DNA of 38,497 bases, from IMG/VR virus record IMGVR_UViG_3300008448_000247, positions 1 to 38,497 of that record; one strand, 5' to 3'. Below, one piece after another: positions 2,726 through 8,925 of the stretch. Position numbers and translations under genes: made by a program. This DNA comes from a virus. Within the stretch, counting starts at the first letter, position 1. Each line of letters begins with the position of its first letter. The notes beneath the pieces are model-generated. The model was not told the origin of the DNA. It worked only from the letters and a program-made list of their open reading frames with translations, and did not search any database.

Positions 2726-3682
2726 ATGATAAAACTGATTGATTTAATAGACGAGATAGAATTAAGAACAGGTCCTTTAGATATACCTGAAGAGGATACT
2801 GCTAATTTCTTTTTAGATGAATTTGGATTCCCTGAAGATGTATTTGACACAGAGGAAGAATGGGAAAAACCAATTGAAGAAGTTGTTCCTAACTTTTTTA
2901 AACAAGTAAATAAAAAGAAAAGTGTAGTAGCTAAAGCTGGGACTTTTGAATTAATTGTACCTTCTTCTTATTATGGTCATCTTTTCTTAATTAATACTGA
3001 GGCTGAAACTAATAGCGCTATCAATAATTTAAACGGGTATTTAGCCGGATTTATTGATGTTGATATAATTAATACAAGCGCTACAAATGGTTTAAGTAAA
3101 CCGTTTAAAATGACTGGAGCCGAAATTCACTTAACCCATATTAATGAAGGTTATAGAGGAATGGGTTTAGGTACTATCATGTATCAAATGTTACTTCAAG
3201 CCTATAAAACAGTATTCTCAGATTCTATTCTATATGAAGCATCTAGAGCAGTTTGGATTAAAAAATTAGCTCCTATGGCTAATGGGAAAAATATTATTTT
3301 TGGAGGTCAAATAGGAAATACAATTGTTCCTTTATCTTTAGAGGATGCTTCAAATGATGATGTAATGGGTGAATGGGGATTTGATAGATATTTCCTTACT
3401 ACTAACCCACCTGCTGAATTAAGAAAAATTGCTGGTGCTGTACAAGGTTTATCTATCACTAATCAAGAATACGGAATATACCAACCAAAAGTTAAAATGA
3501 ATGCTCAACAGCTAATAGACATAGCTGATACTGTTGATTCAATTCCAGCATTAATTAAAGCAGCTAAATTAGATCAAACAGTAGGATACGCGGGTGTCGC
3601 AGATCAGTTCGAGAAAATATTAGTTGAAACGGATAATGCTATAGTAGTTGTGGATGATTTAGCTGAAGCGGAAGTTATCTAA
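2726..3682 (+). CDS. GNAT-like acetyltransferase with capsid-leader-like N-terminus
   Basis: The 318-aa protein begins MIKLIDLIDEIELRTG, close to the MIKLTDLLKEV leader of the kinase (30915) and phosphatase (33175). Residues 132-162 (EIHLTHINEGYRGMGLGTIM) match GNAT motif A, with the R-G-x-G-x-G acyl-CoA-binding loop at 144-149. Flanking regions are acidic and unfamiliar. The C-terminal third (ADTVDSIPALIKAAKL) is helical. Acetyltransferase activity is inferred from motif A only; the substrate is unknown. It is transcribed alone: a terminator and TATTTATA motif lie upstream and a promoter follows at 3725. The leader suggests possible packaging into the capsid. Confidence 0.62.
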   Translation: MIKLIDLIDEIELRTGPLDIPEEDTANFFLDEFGFPEDVFDTEEEWEKPIEEVVPNFFKQVNKKKSVVAKAGTFELIVPSSYYGHLFLINTEAETNSAINNLNGYLAGFIDVDIINTSATNGLSKPFKMTGAEIHLTHINEGYRGMGLGTIMYQMLLQAYKTVFSDSILYEASRAVWIKKLAPMANGKNIIFGGQIGNTIVPLSLEDASNDDVMGEWGFDRYFLTTNPPAELRKIAGAVQGLSITNQEYGIYQPKVKMNAQQLIDIADTVDSIPALIKAAKLDQTVGYAGVADQFEKILVETDNAIVVVDDLAEAEVI

Positions 3683-4665: not shown

Positions 4666-4740
4666 TGTGGGGTAGTAGCAGAGGCCAGCTCGCCAGGCTC
4701 ATAACCTAGGAGGTCGTCGGTTCGAATCCGACCCCCGCTA
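4666..4740 (+). tRNA. tRNA-Met (CAT)
   Basis: Acceptor TGTGGGG pairs with CCCCGCT except for a T-T mismatch at position 1:72. The anticodon loop is CTCATAA and the T arm GTCGG-TTCGAAT-CCGAC. The unpaired 1:72 position is a property of bacterial initiator tRNAs, but the three G-C pairs expected in the initiator anticodon stem are absent, so elongator, initiator and lysidine-type Ile remain possible. Confidence 0.85.
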
Positions 4741-4761
4741 CAAATAAAATATAAAAACAAA

Positions 4762-4878
4762 ATGAAACAGACCTTAAGACATAACAATTATCGCCCGAGC
4801 ACGGCACAGTCGCTGATTATAGCGGATGTGAAGGGATTAGGCTTTAATTGGGATGAAACAAATATGAGGTTTAGTTGA
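4762..4878 (+). CDS. possible small ORF within tRNA island
   Basis: A 38-aa ORF (starting MKQTLRHNNYRPSTAQ, ending NWDETNMRFS) lies between the first tRNA and a strong terminator, after an A-rich leader typical of genes here. It has no recognisable motif and could be chance. Its codon use is more GC-rich (CGC CCG AGC ACG) than that of neighbouring genes. I list it because this 270-base gap otherwise holds only the terminator and a boxA-like site. Confidence 0.25.
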   Translation: MKQTLRHNNYRPSTAQSLIIADVKGLGFNWDETNMRFS

Positions 4879-4907
4879 ATGGAGTGATTATATTACAACA
4901 TCAAAAG

Positions 4908-4944
4908 AACCTCAAACGAATAAAAAAGTTTGAGGTTTTTTTTT
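4908..4944 (+). terminator. strong Rho-independent terminator inside tRNA island
   Basis: AACCTCAAAC (4908-4917) and GTTTGAGGTT (4928-4937) form a perfect 10-bp stem followed by a run of T to 4944. It lies between the first tRNA and the other 24 tRNAs of the main array. I see no copy of the phage promoter between it and the next tRNA. Confidence 0.85.
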
Positions 4945-4986
4945 CAAAAAGTTTTAAAGTAATTAACAACTACTAAGAAACAAAAT

Positions 4987-5001
4987 AGATCTTTGACGTA
5001 T
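4987..5001 (+). promoter_or_regulatory. boxA-like antitermination site
   Basis: AGATCTTTGACGTAT just ahead of tRNA-Asn resembles the boxA element (core CTTTGA/CTTTAA) that loads NusB/NusE antitermination complexes on rRNA leaders. A similar CGTTCTTTGAAAATA lies in the leader of the large RNA at 7974. Function is inferred from sequence and position. Confidence 0.45.
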
Positions 5002-5011
5002 GGAACTTTTT

Positions 5012-5083
5012 GGCGGTATAGCTCAATGGTGGAGCAATCGGCTGTTAACCGATCGGATATGAGTTCGAGTCTCATTGCCGCCT
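5012..5083 (+). tRNA. tRNA-Asn (GTT)
   Basis: Acceptor GGCGGTA/TGCCGCC, anticodon arm ATCGG-CTGTTAA-CCGAT, T arm ATGAG-TTCGAGT-CTCAT, discriminator T followed by C. It is the first tRNA after the internal terminator and boxA-like site. Confidence 0.93.
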
Positions 5084-5092
5084 CTTATTTAT

Positions 5093-5166
5093 GCTCGGTT
5101 CATCTAGTTGGTCCAGGATACAAGATTTTCATTCTTGGCACACGGGTTCGAATCCCGTACCGAGTA
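5093..5166 (+). tRNA. tRNA-Glu (TTC)
   Basis: Acceptor GCTCGGT/ACCGAGT (G-T at 1:72), anticodon arm CAAGA-TTTTCAT-TCTTG, T arm ACGGG-TTCGAAT-CCCGT, discriminator A followed by C. Confidence 0.92.
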
Positions 5167-5177
5167 CTATTTTATTT

Positions 5178-5263
5178 GGTGTCGTCACCATAGCGGCGAT
5201 TGGCCCTGACTGTAAATCAGGTCTCGGAGAGTAACATCGTAGGTTCGAGTCCTACCGGCACCA
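5178..5263 (+). tRNA. tRNA-Tyr (GTA)
   Basis: Acceptor GGTGTCG/CGGCACC, anticodon arm CCTGA-CTGTAAA-TCAGG, long class II variable arm, T arm GTAGG-TTCGAGT-CCTAC, discriminator A followed by C. Confidence 0.93.
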
Positions 5264-5335
5264 CAAAACAAAAACCGGGCCCAAGACAGATGGTGGTTTC
5301 TCTTAAATGAGAGTTTTTGACTTTGTCTTATTTAT

Positions 5336-5409
5336 GCTTTCGTAACTCAACTGGACAGAGTAACTGGCTTTTAACCAGTAAGTTGGGGGTTCGAGTCCCT
5401 CCGGGAGCA
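5336..5409 (+). tRNA. tRNA-Lys (TTT)
   Basis: Acceptor GCTTTCG/CGGGAGC, anticodon arm ACTGG-CTTTTAA-CCAGT, T arm GGGGG-TTCGAGT-CCCTC. It is the only tRNA in the island whose gene encodes a full CCA after the discriminator (A-CCA at 5409-5412). The 72-base spacer upstream (5264-5335) contains AAGACA...TGTCTT and TCTC...GAGA pairings but no gene. Confidence 0.93.
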
Positions 5410-5412
5410 CCA

Positions 5413-5511
5413 AATACTGGGAATGAAAATGATCTGACGGCAATTGGATCAGAAGTAATTTATGGTATCTGTAATGTATAAGTATTTTGCCGAAGAAAGT
5501 ACAAAACAGTT
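5413..5511 (+). other. spacer in tRNA array, possible hairpin, no gene
   Basis: This is one of the longest gaps inside the array. TGATC...GATCA (around 5430-5453) can pair. I see neither an ORF nor a tRNA. It may be a decayed tRNA gene or a processing spacer. Confidence 0.3.
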
Positions 5512-5584
5512 TTTTTATTAGTGTAGCGGCAGCACAGTGGGCTCAGAAAGCCCGCGGGGATTGGTTCGAATCCAATATAAAAAT
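5512..5584 (+). tRNA. tRNA-like gene, anticodon uncertain, atypical
   Basis: A 73-nt cloverleaf is recognisable: T arm ATTGG-TTCGAAT-CCAAT, acceptor TTTTTAT/ATAAAAA made only of A-T pairs, discriminator T followed by C. The best anticodon stem TGGGC/GCCCG leaves the loop TCAGAAA, which lacks the near-universal T33 and would read AGA. A one-base shift would place CAG or GAA, but then the stem fails. It is either a degenerate tRNA or one with an unusual identity. Confidence 0.55.
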
Positions 5585-5593
5585 CAATTTTAT

Positions 5594-5664
5594 ACGCCTA
5601 TGGTGAAATGGTATCATACCGGTCTCCAAAACCGTTGTTTCGAGTTCGAATCTTGGTAGGCGTG
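5594..5664 (+). tRNA. tRNA-Trp (CCA)
   Basis: Acceptor ACGCCTA/TAGGCGT, anticodon loop CTCCAAA on a CCGGT/ACCGT stem with one mismatch, T arm TCGAG-TTCGAAT-CTTGG with G-T pairs, discriminator G followed by C. Confidence 0.88.
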
Positions 5665-5672
5665 CTATTTAT

Positions 5673-5745
5673 GCTTCATTAGCTCAATGGTTAGAGCTCC
5701 TGTTTTGTAAACAGGGGGTTGTTGGTTCGAGTCCGACATGGAGCT
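5673..5745 (+). tRNA. tRNA-Thr (TGT)
   Basis: Acceptor GCTTCAT/ATGGAGC, anticodon arm CCTGT-TTTGTAA-ACAGG, T arm GTTGG-TTCGAGT-CCGAC, discriminator T followed by C. Confidence 0.93.
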
Positions 5746-5755
5746 CAATTTTTAT

Positions 5756-5829
5756 ATCCATATAGCTCAATTGGTTAGAGCATCACACTGATAATGTGAA
5801 GGTTACAGGTTCAAGTCCCGTTATGGATA
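5756..5829 (+). tRNA. tRNA-Ile (GAT)
   Basis: Acceptor ATCCATA/TATGGAT, anticodon arm TCACA-CTGATAA-TGTGA, T arm ACAGG-TTCAAGT-CCCGT with one mismatch, discriminator A followed by C. Confidence 0.92.
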
Positions 5830-5838
5830 CTTTTATAT

Positions 5839-5913
5839 CTAGGTGTCGGGCAGATGGTTATACCCGCCTGGTTTGGGACCAGGATGTCGCAGGTTCGAAT
5901 CCTGCCACTTAGA
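5839..5913 (+). tRNA. tRNA-Pro (TGG)
   Basis: Acceptor CTAGGTG/CACTTAG, anticodon arm CCTGG-TTTGGGA-CCAGG, T arm GCAGG-TTCGAAT-CCTGC, discriminator A followed by C. Confidence 0.92.
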
Positions 5914-5919
5914 CAACAT

Positions 5920-5992
5920 GGGCCGGTAGCTTAAATGGCTAAAGCGCTGCACTTGCAATGCGGAGGATTGGGTTCGAGTCCCACCGTGTCCA
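5920..5992 (+). tRNA. tRNA-Ala (TGC)
   Basis: Anticodon arm CTGCA-CTTGCAA-TGCGG, D arm GCTT/AAGC, T loop TTCGAGT. The acceptor GGGCCGG pairs imperfectly with CCGTGTCC and seems to need a bulged T, so the 3' side may carry a one-base insertion. Discriminator A is followed by C. Confidence 0.85.
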
Positions 5993-6001
5993 CTACAAAA
6001 T

Positions 6002-6074
6002 GCTTCTATAGCTCAATGGTGAGAGCAGGACGCTTATATCGTCAAGGTTACAAGTTCGAGTCTTGTTAGAAGTA
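6002..6074 (+). tRNA. tRNA-Ile (TAT)
   Basis: Acceptor GCTTCTA/TAGAAGT, anticodon loop CTTATAT on a GACG/CGTC stem, T arm ACAAG-TTCGAGT-CTTGT, discriminator A followed by C. A TAT anticodon reads ATA directly, a codon frequent in this AT-rich phage, and avoids the lysidine-modified CAT route of most bacteria. Confidence 0.88.
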
Positions 6075-6080
6075 CTATAT

Positions 6081-6154
6081 GCACTCTTAGCTCAGCTGGA
6101 AGTAGCGCTTGCCTTACATGCAAGAGGTCGTAGGTTCGATCCCTACAGGGTGTA
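6081..6154 (+). tRNA. tRNA-Val (TAC)
   Basis: Acceptor GCACTCT/AGGGTGT, anticodon arm CTTGC-CTTACAT-GCAAG, T arm GTAGG-TTCGATC-CCTAC, discriminator A followed by C. Confidence 0.93.
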
Positions 6155-6162
6155 CTAAAAAT

Positions 6163-6235
6163 GGAGTCGTAGCTCAATTGGTAGAGCGGTAGGTTGAAGG
6201 TCTACGCGTTGGCGGTTCGAGTCCGTCCGACTCCG
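6163..6235 (+). tRNA. tRNA-Phe (GAA)
   Basis: Acceptor GGAGTCG/CGACTCC, anticodon arm GTAGG-TTGAAGG-TCTAC, T arm GGCGG-TTCGAGT-CCGTC, discriminator G followed by C. The 86-base spacer after it (6236-6321) holds no gene I can see; GTGACCTTA and TAAGGTGAC there are near-complementary. Confidence 0.92.
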
Positions 6236-6321
6236 CAAGTATAATGTACGTCGGTGTGACCTTAAACGTCCGAAATTAAATAATACAGGATAAGGTGACA
6301 AATCTGGAGAGACAGGTATAT

Positions 6322-6393
6322 GCGGGTATAGTATAATGGTTATTATGATAGCCTTCCAAGCCTTAGATGTCAGTTCGATTCTGACTACCCGCT
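6322..6393 (+). tRNA. tRNA-Gly (TCC)
   Basis: Acceptor GCGGGTA/TACCCGC, anticodon loop CTTCCAA, T arm GTCAG-TTCGATT-CTGAC, discriminator T followed by C. The anticodon stem (ATAGC/GCCTT) is weak, with two mismatches, so function may be impaired or the stem may be rearranged. Confidence 0.85.
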
Positions 6394-6402
6394 CTTTTTT
6401 AT

Positions 6403-6477
6403 TGCCTTGTCATGTATAATGGCTTAATACGCTAGACTTTGACTCTAGAGATAGTGGTTCGATTCCATTCAGGGCAA
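6403..6477 (+). tRNA. tRNA-Gln (TTG)
   Basis: Acceptor TGCCTTG/CAGGGCA, anticodon arm CTAGA-CTTTGAC-TCTAG, T arm AGTGG-TTCGATT-CCATT, discriminator A followed by C. Confidence 0.92.
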
Positions 6478-6483
6478 CTTTAT

Positions 6484-6581
6484 AGAGGGGTTCTCAGAGA
6501 GAATACAGGGTACCTGACACGGTCTTGAAAACCGTTCGCTCGCCGAGAGGTGAGGTGTGAGTTCGAATCTCACTCCCTCTG
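6484..6581 (+). tRNA. tRNA-Ser (TGA)
   Basis: Class II tRNA with a long GC-rich variable arm. Acceptor AGAGGGG/TCCCTCT, anticodon arm ACGGT-CTTGAAA-ACCGT, T arm GTGAG-TTCGAAT-CTCAC, discriminator G (as expected for Ser) followed by C. Confidence 0.93.
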
Positions 6582-6599
6582 CTTATTGTTTTTAAAAAT

Positions 6600-6672
6600 C
6601 GAAGCCGTGGTGTAATGGCGTGCATATCACACTGTCACTGTGAAGGTTGGGGTTCGAACCCCCCGGTTTCGA
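6600..6672 (+). tRNA. tRNA-Asp (GTC)
   Basis: Acceptor CGAAGCC/GGTTTCG, anticodon arm TCACA-CTGTCAC-TGTGA, T arm TGGGG-TTCGAAC-CCCCC with one T-C mismatch, discriminator A followed by C. Confidence 0.9.
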
Positions 6673-6679
6673 CTTATTT

Positions 6680-6761
6680 GCCCTGGTGGTGGAAATGGTA
6701 GTCACGCTGGTCTTAGAAACCAGTGCCTACGGGCGTGAGGGTTCGACTCCCTCCTAGGGTA
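6680..6761 (+). tRNA. tRNA-Leu (TAG)
   Basis: Class II. Acceptor GCCCTGG/CTAGGGT, anticodon arm CTGGT-CTTAGAA-ACCAG, variable arm around TGCCTACGGGCG, T arm GAGGG-TTCGACT-CCCTC, discriminator A followed by C. Confidence 0.92.
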
Positions 6762-6767
6762 CTATTT

Positions 6768-6853
6768 GCCGGGATGATGGAATTGGTAGTCATGCTAGAC
6801 TTAAAATCTAGTGGGTCGTAAGACCCGTGCGGGTTCGACTCCCGCTCCCGGTA
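6768..6853 (+). tRNA. tRNA-Leu (TAA)
   Basis: Class II. Acceptor GCCGGGA/TCCCGGT, anticodon arm CTAGA-CTTAAAA-TCTAG, variable arm GGGTC/GACCC, T arm GCGGG-TTCGACT-CCCGC, discriminator A followed by C. Confidence 0.93.
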
Positions 6854-6863
6854 CTATTACATG

Positions 6864-6937
6864 GTGTCGTTTGACAAGCGGTCTAAGTCGCCTGTCTGTG
6901 AAACAGGCCATCACCAGTTCGAATCTGGTACGACACA
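6864..6937 (+). tRNA. tRNA-His (GTG)
   Basis: Acceptor GTGTCGT/ACGACAC, anticodon arm CCTGT-CTGTGAA-ACAGG, T arm ACCAG-TTCGAAT-CTGGT. A G at 6863 can serve as the G-1 typical of tRNA-His, but it faces discriminator A rather than C. Confidence 0.92.
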
Positions 6938-6944
6938 CTTATTT

Positions 6945-7032
6945 GGAGAGTAATCCTTGACGGTGATAGGGTCCGCCTGCTAAGCGAGATGTTCGGGTAA
7001 AACCGGATTTGGTTCGACTCCAATGCTCTCCG
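6945..7032 (+). tRNA. tRNA-Ser (GCT)
   Basis: Class II. Acceptor GGAGAGT/GCTCTCC, anticodon loop CTGCTAA, variable arm around TTCGGGTAAAACCGGA, T arm TTTGG-TTCGACT-CCAAT with a terminal mismatch, discriminator G followed by C. Confidence 0.9.
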
Positions 7033-7040
7033 CATTTTAT

Positions 7041-7112
7041 GCCTCTATCGTTCAACGGATAGGACAAGCGCCTTCTAAGCGTTTAATACAGGTTCGAGTC
7101 CTGTTAGGGGTA
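7041..7112 (+). tRNA. tRNA-Arg (TCT)
   Basis: Acceptor GCCTCTA/TAGGGGT, anticodon arm AGCGC-CTTCTAA-GCGTT, T arm ACAGG-TTCGAGT-CCTGT, discriminator A followed by C. The spacer after it contains TATTTATAATAA (from 7115), the late-type motif. Confidence 0.92.
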
Positions 7113-7127
7113 CTATTTATAATAAAC

Positions 7128-7200
7128 GCCCTGTTAGTTCAACTGGATAGAACACTTGACTACGGATCAAGAAATAGGAGTTCGAATCTCTTACGGGGTA
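7128..7200 (+). tRNA. tRNA-Arg (ACG)
   Basis: Acceptor GCCCTGT/ACGGGGT, anticodon arm CTTGA-CTACGGA-TCAAG, T arm AGGAG-TTCGAAT-CTCTT, discriminator A followed by C. The A34 requires host TadA deamination to inosine to read CGC and CGA. Confidence 0.92.
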
Positions 7201-7209
7201 CTAATAATT

Positions 7210-7282
7210 GGCTAGATGTCTGAGTGGTTTTAAGTACAGAGTTGCAACCTCTGTTACGTGGGTTCGAATCCTACTCTAGCCT
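7210..7282 (+). tRNA. tRNA-Cys (GCA)
   Basis: Acceptor GGCTAGA/TCTAGCC, anticodon arm CAGAG-TTGCAAC-CTCTG, T arm GTGGG-TTCGAAT-CCTAC, discriminator T followed by C. It ends only 10 bases before the Shine-Dalgarno of the YkuK-like gene. Confidence 0.92.
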
Positions 7283-7292
7283 CAAATTAAAA

Positions 7293-7298
7293 AGGAGG
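7293..7298 (+). promoter_or_regulatory. strong Shine-Dalgarno, unusual for this genome
   Basis: AGGAGG lies 5 bases before the ATG at 7304. Other genes in the window have A-rich leaders, overlapping starts or near-leaderless starts, so this is the one gene with a textbook ribosome binding site. Confidence 0.8.
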
Positions 7299-7303
7299 GT
7301 TCT

Positions 7304-7762
7304 ATGAACTTACAGTTTAAAAGTCTTTCAACAAGAAAAGACATTGATTTAGTTCCATACATTAAAGATTTCTTATCTAAAAATGAGAATACATCTATCC
7401 TTATAGGTAGTGATTCTCAAAACAGAAAAGATAAGACAACTTACGCTGTAGTAATTGTATTACATAACCCAGGAAAAGGAGGACACGTTCTTTATGCTAA
7501 AGACATTGTGTCTCGTATTTCTGATAGGTTCACACGTTTATGGAATGAAGTTGAATATTCAATTGTATTAGCTGAGTACTTAACTAGTAATGGTATTCGA
7601 AAACCTAATTTCATAGACATTGACTTAAACCCAGATCCAAAGTACAAATCAAATCAAGTACTTAGATCAGCATTAGGTTATATTGAAGCGATGGGATATA
7701 CGCCTCGTTGTAAACCGAACGCTATGGTTGCATCATATGTAGCAGATGCTCTTTGTAAATAA
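7304..7762 (+). CDS. YkuK-like (DUF458) RNase H-fold protein
   Basis: The 152-aa protein matches the YkuK/DUF458 pattern: I-G-S-D-S-Q at residues 34-39 on the first strand, followed by TTYAVVIVLHNPGKGGHVLY, a helix with NEVEYS (81-86), and DIDLNPDPKYKSN with acidic residues 105 and 107. The family has an RNase H-like fold whose clustered acids could bind metal, so a nuclease acting on RNA or DNA is plausible, but its role is not established. It sits inside the stable-RNA island, between tRNA-Cys and tRNA-Met, with no visible promoter of its own, so it is probably read from the tRNA transcript. This suggests a link to tRNA processing or turnover. Confidence 0.7.
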   Translation: MNLQFKSLSTRKDIDLVPYIKDFLSKNENTSILIGSDSQNRKDKTTYAVVIVLHNPGKGGHVLYAKDIVSRISDRFTRLWNEVEYSIVLAEYLTSNGIRKPNFIDIDLNPDPKYKSNQVLRSALGYIEAMGYTPRCKPNAMVASYVADALCK

Positions 7763-7764
7763 AG

Positions 7765-7796
7765 TTTGGCCTTCTGAGAAAAAGATGTTATATTAA
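7765..7796 (+). promoter_or_regulatory. phage promoter (TTTG-N20-TATATTAA)
   Basis: TTTG at 7765-7768 and TATATTAA at 7789-7796 are spaced by 20 nt. The tRNA-Met begins 13 bases later. Confidence 0.75.
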
Positions 7797-7808
7797 CAAT
7801 GTTAATAA

Positions 7809-7882
7809 GCGCCTGTAGCTCAATTGGTTAGAGCAGCTGACTCATAATCAGCAGGTCATAGGTTCGATTCCTATCAGGCGCA
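7809..7882 (+). tRNA. tRNA-Met (CAT)
   Basis: Acceptor GCGCCTG/CAGGCGC fully paired, anticodon arm GCTGA-CTCATAA-TCAGC, T arm ATAGG-TTCGATT-CCTAT, discriminator A followed by C. It has its own promoter and may be the elongator Met or a lysidine-type Ile tRNA. Confidence 0.93.
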
Positions 7883-7914
7883 CAAAAAAGAGGTTAAAGG
7901 AAAGTAAAAAATAA

Positions 7915-7946
7915 TTTGGCTCTTTAAAAATCTTATGTTATATTAA
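7915..7946 (+). promoter_or_regulatory. phage promoter of the large RNA
   Basis: TTTG at 7915-7918 and TATATTAA at 7939-7946 are spaced by 20 nt. Transcription should start near 7950 and run into the structured RNA. Confidence 0.75.
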
Positions 7947-7973
7947 TAATATAAGAAATTAAGAAAAACAAAA

Positions 7974-7988
7974 CGTTCTTTGAAAATA
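7974..7988 (+). promoter_or_regulatory. boxA-like site in the leader of the large RNA
   Basis: CGTTCTTTGAAAATA lies about 25 nt after the predicted transcription start. The GTTCTTTGA core resembles boxA of rRNA leaders and the 4987 site before the tRNA array. It could make the polymerase resistant to termination through this long untranslated RNA. Confidence 0.45.
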
Positions 7989-8365
7989 TTATTATCCATT
8001 CAATGAATAATTAGCCCCTCAAAGCTCTTCGGAGCCGCCAAGGTTAGTTTGAAGTTGATAAATGATAATCGGCCGCCTATGGTCGTTAAATAAACTGGGA
8101 AACCAGGATAAAGTGAGCTACTTGACTGAAGTAGTTTGCGGTTCGAAGCAATTTGAACTCGAGTAGGCAAGCGAGATATCATTTGACCTTTAGTATCGAG
8201 GGTAACACTGTAGAGAAAATGTGTTGGGTGACTAAGCGATGTGGGTCGTTTAGTTGAGTTCGGAAGAACAATAAGAATAACTCGTAGATATCAAGTAAGA
8301 AATGTCGCCATCCAGCTTCATAATTGCGGGTATCAATATAAGAGGGATCTTAAAACCGAAAGGTA

Positions 8366-8380
8366 TGTTAGAGTACAGGT
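8366..8380 (+). repeat. 15-nt repeat in large RNA, copy 1
   Basis: TGTTAGAGTACAGGT is identical to 8796-8810, 430 bases downstream. This copy directly follows the ACC-GAAA-GGT hairpin. Confidence 0.85.
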
Positions 8381-8795
8381 GGTGCTGTTACTAACCTTGA
8401 TTCAAGTCTACCAAGACTCGTTTCACGAAGGAATCTTAAAATATGGAGGTGGGGACACTTCAGAGAGTAGTTGAGTATTGACTCGTTCAAAAGATGAGTT
8501 AGCTTAGGGTAAGCCACTACTTTCACAATCCACAAGTCAAAACTTAAGGACTTCACTTTTAATGAACAATTCTAAGTAAAAAATTAAGCATAAGCGCTTA
8601 CCAGTCACGGACGAAAATTGCCTACATAGTATCCGGTTGTCGGGTGCCAGTTTAGACCGCAAGTTTAAATTGATATCTCCGAAAGGTCTATAACACCGCA
8701 AGTGTGAATCAGCTCGGCAGGGTTGAGTAGAATAAGTAAGAGGTGAGTAGTCCAAACAAGTGACTTTAAGAGTGGTTCACTTAAATAACCGGCAT

Positions 8796-8810
8796 TGTTA
8801 GAGTACAGGT
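8796..8810 (+). repeat. 15-nt repeat in large RNA, copy 2
   Basis: TGTTAGAGTACAGGT is repeated exactly here. In this copy GTTAGA can pair with TCTAAC at 8855-8860. Exact conservation of two copies suggests a structural motif used twice, such as a tertiary contact or an intermolecular interface. Confidence 0.85.
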
Positions 8811-8902
8811 CAAAAGCTTGTGGATATAAAGGGAAACAATAATCCGATTAAAGTTCTAACACCAAACGTGTAATCTCAGCGTTTTCTAAAAAACTAAGTT
8901 AA

Positions 8903-8925
8903 AGCGGCTTTAAGCCGCTATCTTT
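8903..8925 (+). terminator. terminator of the large RNA
   Basis: AGCGGC (8903-8908) pairs with GCCGCT (8914-8919) around TTTAA; one or two further A-T pairs extend the stem. The T-rich tail ATCTTTATTCT is imperfect. It lies at the 3' end of the structured region. Confidence 0.65.

Follow-up and report, generated by a model that had tools for sequence, protein, structure and literature searches.

What is the long, hairpin-rich RNA that a tailed phage encodes at the end of its tRNA island, and how would it be made? The window analysed here is a whole virus record of 38,497 bases (class 'linear') and therefore probably represents part of a longer genome. It holds 26 tRNA genes at 4666–7883 (ARAGORN), and next to them a preliminary description had placed a non-coding RNA at 7950–8925, assigned either to the class of GOLLD and ROOL or to a new class and regarded as the strongest candidate for an undescribed system. 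The baseplate and phosphohydrolase-like proteins of the window are 47% and 52% identical to those of Flavobacterium phage immuto, the nearest cultured relative, so the host is probably a member of the Bacteroidota.

A known RNA family in its own transcription unit

A scan of the whole window with Rfam 15 returned a single large-RNA match, GOLLD (RF02032), at 8463–8882(+), which covers model positions 1–416 of 416 with 266.5 bits (E 4.8e-75; gathering score 150 bits). ROOL (RF03087) had no match at its gathering score in the window, which excludes ROOL identity, and the complete GOLLD match likewise excludes a new class. The search with both covariance models, which the preliminary description had proposed, thus decided among its options for GOLLD, and the supposed undescribed system is a known RNA. 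Because the full-length model match is accompanied by end-to-end homology to other GOLLDs and by strong covariation, we conclude that the region is a bona fide GOLLD RNA and a further example of this family. Phage origin and nearby tRNA genes are both found here, in the form of a baseplate gene and the 26 tRNAs.

Several properties of the locus fit the initial view of an untranslated RNA. Sixteen stems of 5 bp or more, none overlapping another, were counted, compared with 7.9 ± 2.1 in dinucleotide shuffles (at least a dozen hairpins had been noticed before), and the folding energy z was −3.79 for the sense and −0.97 for the antisense strand. Each of the three ORFs tested inside the conserved body is open in just 6–9 of the 87 homologues, and length changes break its frame in about half of these homologues or more. 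It is therefore certain that a structured non-coding RNA is encoded here, and a hidden protein gene, judged implausible from the outset, is excluded. Stems closed by UUCG or GNRA loops are enriched (2 versus 0.1 expected in a strict count), for which 'several' had been a slightly generous word. Promoter, boxA-like leader and terminator are all present where they had been described (Table 1). The unit as such was recognised correctly and its borders were not: the conserved body spans about 8062–8882, and 7945–8060 is a variable leader except for boxA. Six further copies of the promoter-like sequence TTTGGC-N18-TATATT[TA] occur in the window, and the −7 element of the GOLLD unit, TATATT, stands 36 nt ahead of boxA. 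The terminator was found by a weak consensus scan (one found versus one expected by chance), yet it is correctly placed just past the RNA body.

Table 1. Features of the GOLLD transcription unit and its upstream neighbour in the window.
Feature	Position	Strand	Evidence or remark
tRNA-Met (CAT), last gene of the island of 26 tRNAs, immediately before the GOLLD unit	7809..7883	+	ARAGORN; Rfam tRNA 78.8 bits
Promoter-like site TTTGGC-N18-TATATT	7915..7944	+	TTTGGC 7915–7920, TATATT 7939–7944
boxA GTTCTTTGAAAA, predicted rRNA-type NusB/NusE(S10) recognition element	7975..7986	+	motif in 82/86 relatives
Variable leader with small hairpins	7987..8061	+	conservation profile: identity 0.26–0.35, about half gaps at 8000–8055
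GOLLD 5′ domain	8062..8462	+	nhmmer homology; 20 covarying base pairs; blastn
GOLLD 3′ domain, RF02032 1–416	8463..8882	+	266.5 bits; 24 covarying base pairs
Variable linker	8540..8580	+	conservation dip; corresponds to the linker inside the solved cage (PMC12286853)
J13/15 side of the predicted kissing contact with L20 (8659–8660), by position bridge B7 of the solved GOLLD	8588..8589	+	covariation
Two P21-type hairpin loops with self-complementary dinucleotides, candidate symmetric half-shell contacts B8/B9	8697..8720	+	
Intrinsic-terminator-like hairpin AGCGGCTTTAAGCCGCT, then T-rich tail	8903..8925	+	hairpin 8903–8919

Conserved domains and predicted cage contacts

The upstream half of the RNA (about 8062–8462) lies outside the Rfam model and is homologous end to end to more than 100 viral GOLLDs. 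Pattern scans of viral contigs with the 3′ domain and with the 5′ domain returned at least 119 stretches each, and with nhmmer nearly all listed matches align end to end with window positions 7968–8893, save where a contig ends. Near-identical copies are present in other contigs, and in blastn the 5′ domain matches LR745206 and LR756502, two huge uncultured phages of 634–642 kb that likewise carry the RNA. The conservation profile delimits a body at about 8062–8890 with a dip at 8540–8580 and a diverged leader; the GOLLD body is thus longer than 800 nt, and a variable linker separates its structured parts. Domain order and linker position match the layout of GOLLD env-38, whose 5′ region (1–420), 3′ region (421–833) and disordered linker (497–538) follow each other in the same order and with similar lengths (PMC12286853). 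In the solved GOLLD, the 5′ domain is the cap domain and the linker lies disordered inside the cage (PMC12286853). Like env-38, the window RNA is located downstream of a tRNA-Met near a tRNA island. Its linker measures 28–60 nt between fixed flanks in 87 copies among the matches listed. Some GOLLDs hold a tRNA in the linker; this type is excluded here, as the window linker has none and neither does any of these 87 copies (0/87). At locus L127 (about 3158–3336, minus strand), about 140 extra bases are inserted in the 5′ domain.

For the covariation analysis among homologues, which had been suggested along with the model search, we used 87 non-redundant sequences from the matches listed (median identity to the window 0.67) and scored all column pairs by an APC-corrected G statistic against 20 null alignments, made by scattering the inferred substitutions of each column randomly over the tree. 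Above every null maximum were 54 column pairs; 44 of them are nested (20 in the 5′ and 24 in the 3′ domain), nine are other long-range pairs and one is non-canonical. The long-range pairs are 98–100% canonical and include a kissing contact: 8589–8659 (CG in 47, GC in 36 and AT in 3 of 87) links the stretch after the linker with the loop that by position is L20, and 8588–8660 is GC in 81 and TA in 6 of 87. In the cryo-EM structure of env-38, a 14-subunit RNA cage, the J13/15–L20 contact forms the intermolecular bridge B7 (PMC12286853). Furthermore, the loop dinucleotide 8717–8718 is GC in 84 and CG in 3 of 87 copies, as expected for a self-complementary kissing loop. The window RNA shares with env-38 a predicted J13/15–L20 contact, which covaries here, and self-complementary P21-type loops, the names of loops and bridges being given by position. 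Since covariation extends over both domains and includes the J13/15–L20 contact, assembly of the window GOLLD into a cage is likely: the RNA would self-assemble into a 14-subunit cage as known for env-38, with the variable linker inside. A cage of this kind would also be a likeness to ROOL (RF03087), a phage-linked large cage RNA of similar scale.

A conserved boxA leader

The boxA-like leader had been recognised correctly, and its boxA is kept in nearly all relatives. Of 86 non-redundant phage copies among the matches listed, 82 have GTTCTTT[GA]A 35–137 nt ahead of the GOLLD body (counted within 160 nt of the body, in copies with enough upstream sequence), where the background in the same loci, 7.4e-5 per base, predicts about one in total; the copies are related, so that these counts are not independent events. 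The four exceptions are L104 (GTTCTTAAA), L206 (GTTCTTTTA), L127 (GTTCTTTGTA) and L125, which has none. When the leaders are aligned on boxA, GTTCTTT carries 1.9–2.0 bits per position versus about 0.1–0.5 at most flanking positions, and many nhmmer alignments start right at the boxA-like element, a conservation island in an otherwise diverged leader. Upstream of it, 59 of 84 copies have TAnnTTTG within 90 nt (expected: 0.1 per copy), mostly at 34–36 nt from boxA; the presumed hosts of the relatives are deduced from promoter type. A hairpin of at least 5 bp lies in the 40 nt ahead of boxA in 64 of 84 copies versus 17 in shuffles, and the elements therefore follow the hairpin-then-boxA order described for rRNA leaders (PMC6614801). 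In the window itself, the hairpin ahead of boxA shares bases with the −7 element, so that part of it is probably left out of the RNA, and the predicted transcript lacks the typical hairpin. The same motif also precedes tRNA genes (20 versus 4.6 expected) and tmRNA genes (4 versus 0.1 expected) in these phages.

Other elements were seen in the leaders of relatives. A hairpin of about 45 nt, which is absent from the window, follows the TAnnTTTG promoter directly, in one or two copies, upstream of GOLLD at L046, L058, L136, L148, L161, L183, L186, L195, L196 and L201. It occurs in the types '..AGGTGATGAAAGATACTCGG..' and 'GAGA..AACGATTNAGATACAA.TCTC' with the common core GAU-NN-AGAUAC, and an Rfam search of three of the loci gave no match for it. 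Between promoter and boxA, L007, L011 and L205 carry another structured insert, AAGGAGGTCTGGTGTGAACCCGACT...CGAGTCGGTAGCATG.

As a universal feature of GOLLD or ROOL, boxA is excluded. The GOLLDs of Acinetobacter phages and of a Mycobacterium lie inside tRNA arrays and lack boxA, and the one ROOL examined, from Ligilactobacillus salivarius, had no boxA in the 600-nt stretch upstream. Since the GOLLDs of tRNA arrays do without it, boxA belongs to the stand-alone transcription unit of this lineage rather than to GOLLD as such. Among openly accessible full texts that treat at least two of GOLLD, ROOL and boxA, none mentions boxA, and we found no paper describing a boxA leader for GOLLD; in this the window copy differs from the GOLLDs of the literature searched. 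The conserved boxA leader is the part that specialists may not know.

The Acinetobacter-phage GOLLDs are unannotated and belong to the cultured phages YMC13/03/R2096, AM24, Herod, Bestia and Ab15 (KM672662, KY000079, MW316732, MW316733, PP763259; L234–L238). Where tRNAs are annotated, the RNA lies between tRNA-Asn and tRNA-Asp; in Ab15, short antisense ORFs are annotated in its place. A wide genome scan for GOLLD and ROOL found none.

Parallels with host rRNA operons

In a phylum-wide sample, 9 of 11 Bacteroidota 16S rRNA leaders carry GTTCTTT[GA] 75–168 nt before 16S. One of these nine, L262, combines TTGACA, TAACTTTG and a hairpin, arranged as in the GOLLD leaders. In two further 16S leaders, taken from relatives of a Melioribacteraceae genome, GTTCTTTGAAAGA lies 90–100 nt before 16S. 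The window element GTTCTTTGAAAA at 7975 has the boxA form of the rRNA operons of this host group and lies on the sense strand upstream of a structured RNA. With its promoter and then GTTCTTTGA ahead of a long structured untranslated RNA, the GOLLD unit resembles a bacterial rRNA operon leader, and the distance to that RNA, about 75–170 nt in the rRNA leaders, is similar; the hairpin of this arrangement is seen in most relatives. The GOLLD unit differs in driving a phage RNA rather than 16S rRNA and, compared with the boxB-boxA-boxC arrangement, in that no boxC or leader-trailer helix was identified in the GOLLD unit. In Escherichia coli, the rRNA boxA binds NusB-NusE, and the complex opposes Rho; according to a proposal, it also holds the leader close to RNA polymerase, which lets remote segments of the RNA come together and fold (PMC6614801, PMC5725501).

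Our best reading, drawn from these sequence parallels, is that the GOLLD cage RNA would be transcribed by the host's rRNA-type Nus/boxA machinery. The RNA's own promoter would start a transcript with the boxA leader first and the intrinsic terminator last. Host NusB-NusE(S10) and partner Nus factors would bind boxA on the nascent RNA. They would protect the polymerase against arrest by Rho and by the numerous hairpins, and would anchor the 5′ end during folding of the GOLLD body, as in 16S rRNA synthesis. For the overall picture, a GOLLD of a Bacteroidota tailed phage with its own promoter, rRNA-type boxA leader and intrinsic terminator, synthesised with Nus factors and assembling into a cage, we estimate a probability of roughly 0.85. 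A broader version, in which a copied host rRNA leader heads the stable RNAs of Bacteroidota phages (GOLLD, tmRNA and tRNA arrays), the cage forms by way of NusB-S10-boxA and its function is tied to the production of ribosomes or to their parts, seems to us about evenly balanced.

Alternative explanations

S10 is NusE as well as a ribosomal protein, and an abundant GOLLD might use its boxA to titrate NusB and S10 off the host rRNA operons and so halt ribosome synthesis, the cage being secondary. No stretch of the leader varies less than boxA, which would agree with this, as would the binding of GOLLD by ribosomes in pull-downs cited in PMC12286853; however, GOLLDs without boxA exist and titration leaves the conserved cage contacts unexplained, which makes it improbable. 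A little less credible still is that the conserved GTTCTTTGA is a structural part of GOLLD, pairing for instance with the invariant 3′-domain loop CAAAAG at 8488–8493, and no Nus-factor site. The boxA and this loop share a six-base complementarity (UUUGAA / UUCAAA) and both are highly conserved, but in 13 copies the boxA G is replaced by A or U and the loop stays CAAAAG without compensation. Moreover, the motif also stands before tRNA, tmRNA and host 16S rRNA, all without a CAAAAG-type loop, and a GOLLD in an Acinetobacter-phage tRNA array retains the loop (TTCAAAAGA) without boxA. That GOLLD is a functionless relic carried along with the tRNA island is the least credible of all: immuto has no GOLLD (only about 1 kb separates its T5orf172 and phosphohydrolase genes), which shows that members of this phage group can do without the RNA, and a Lactobacillus brevis prophage GOLLD was dispensable for phage production (quoted in PMC7567579). 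Against this, the model match is intact and full-length, the conserved pairs, promoter, boxA and terminator are all there, and other contigs hold near-identical copies.

Genomic setting and possible role

The reading of Nus-aided synthesis leaves the role of the RNA to be considered. Its setting beside tRNA and tmRNA genes together with the rRNA-type signals would favour a function in or near the translation apparatus in late infection, a tentative and rather doubtful suggestion. An RNase H-like protein (PF04308, E 8e-26) is encoded at 7304–7762, after the tRNA array and ahead of the tRNA-Met/GOLLD unit; of the other 87 loci, only 9 have a relative of it close to GOLLD, in positions that vary, which excludes it as a fixed partner of GOLLD in general. 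At 4985–5011, AGATCTTTGACGTATGG lies just ahead of the tRNA-Asn at 5012 and may be a diverged boxA that serves the tRNA array. Phage tmRNA genes were seen near GOLLD on the opposite strand at L002, L016, L017, L028, L030, L031 and L038.

To our knowledge, only two natural RNAs are known to form protein-free cages, and GOLLD is one of them. The near-universal boxA leader of the GOLLDs in the Bacteroidota-phage branch shows a way in which an untranslated RNA of such length and with so many hairpins could be fully transcribed and folded; it is a clue to GOLLD production that makes specific tests possible, and the cultured Acinetobacter phages with GOLLD offer laboratory systems for the question of function. 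If the host-rRNA-leader reading is true, a phage RNA cage would be synthesised and folded by the ribosome-assembly machinery of its host.
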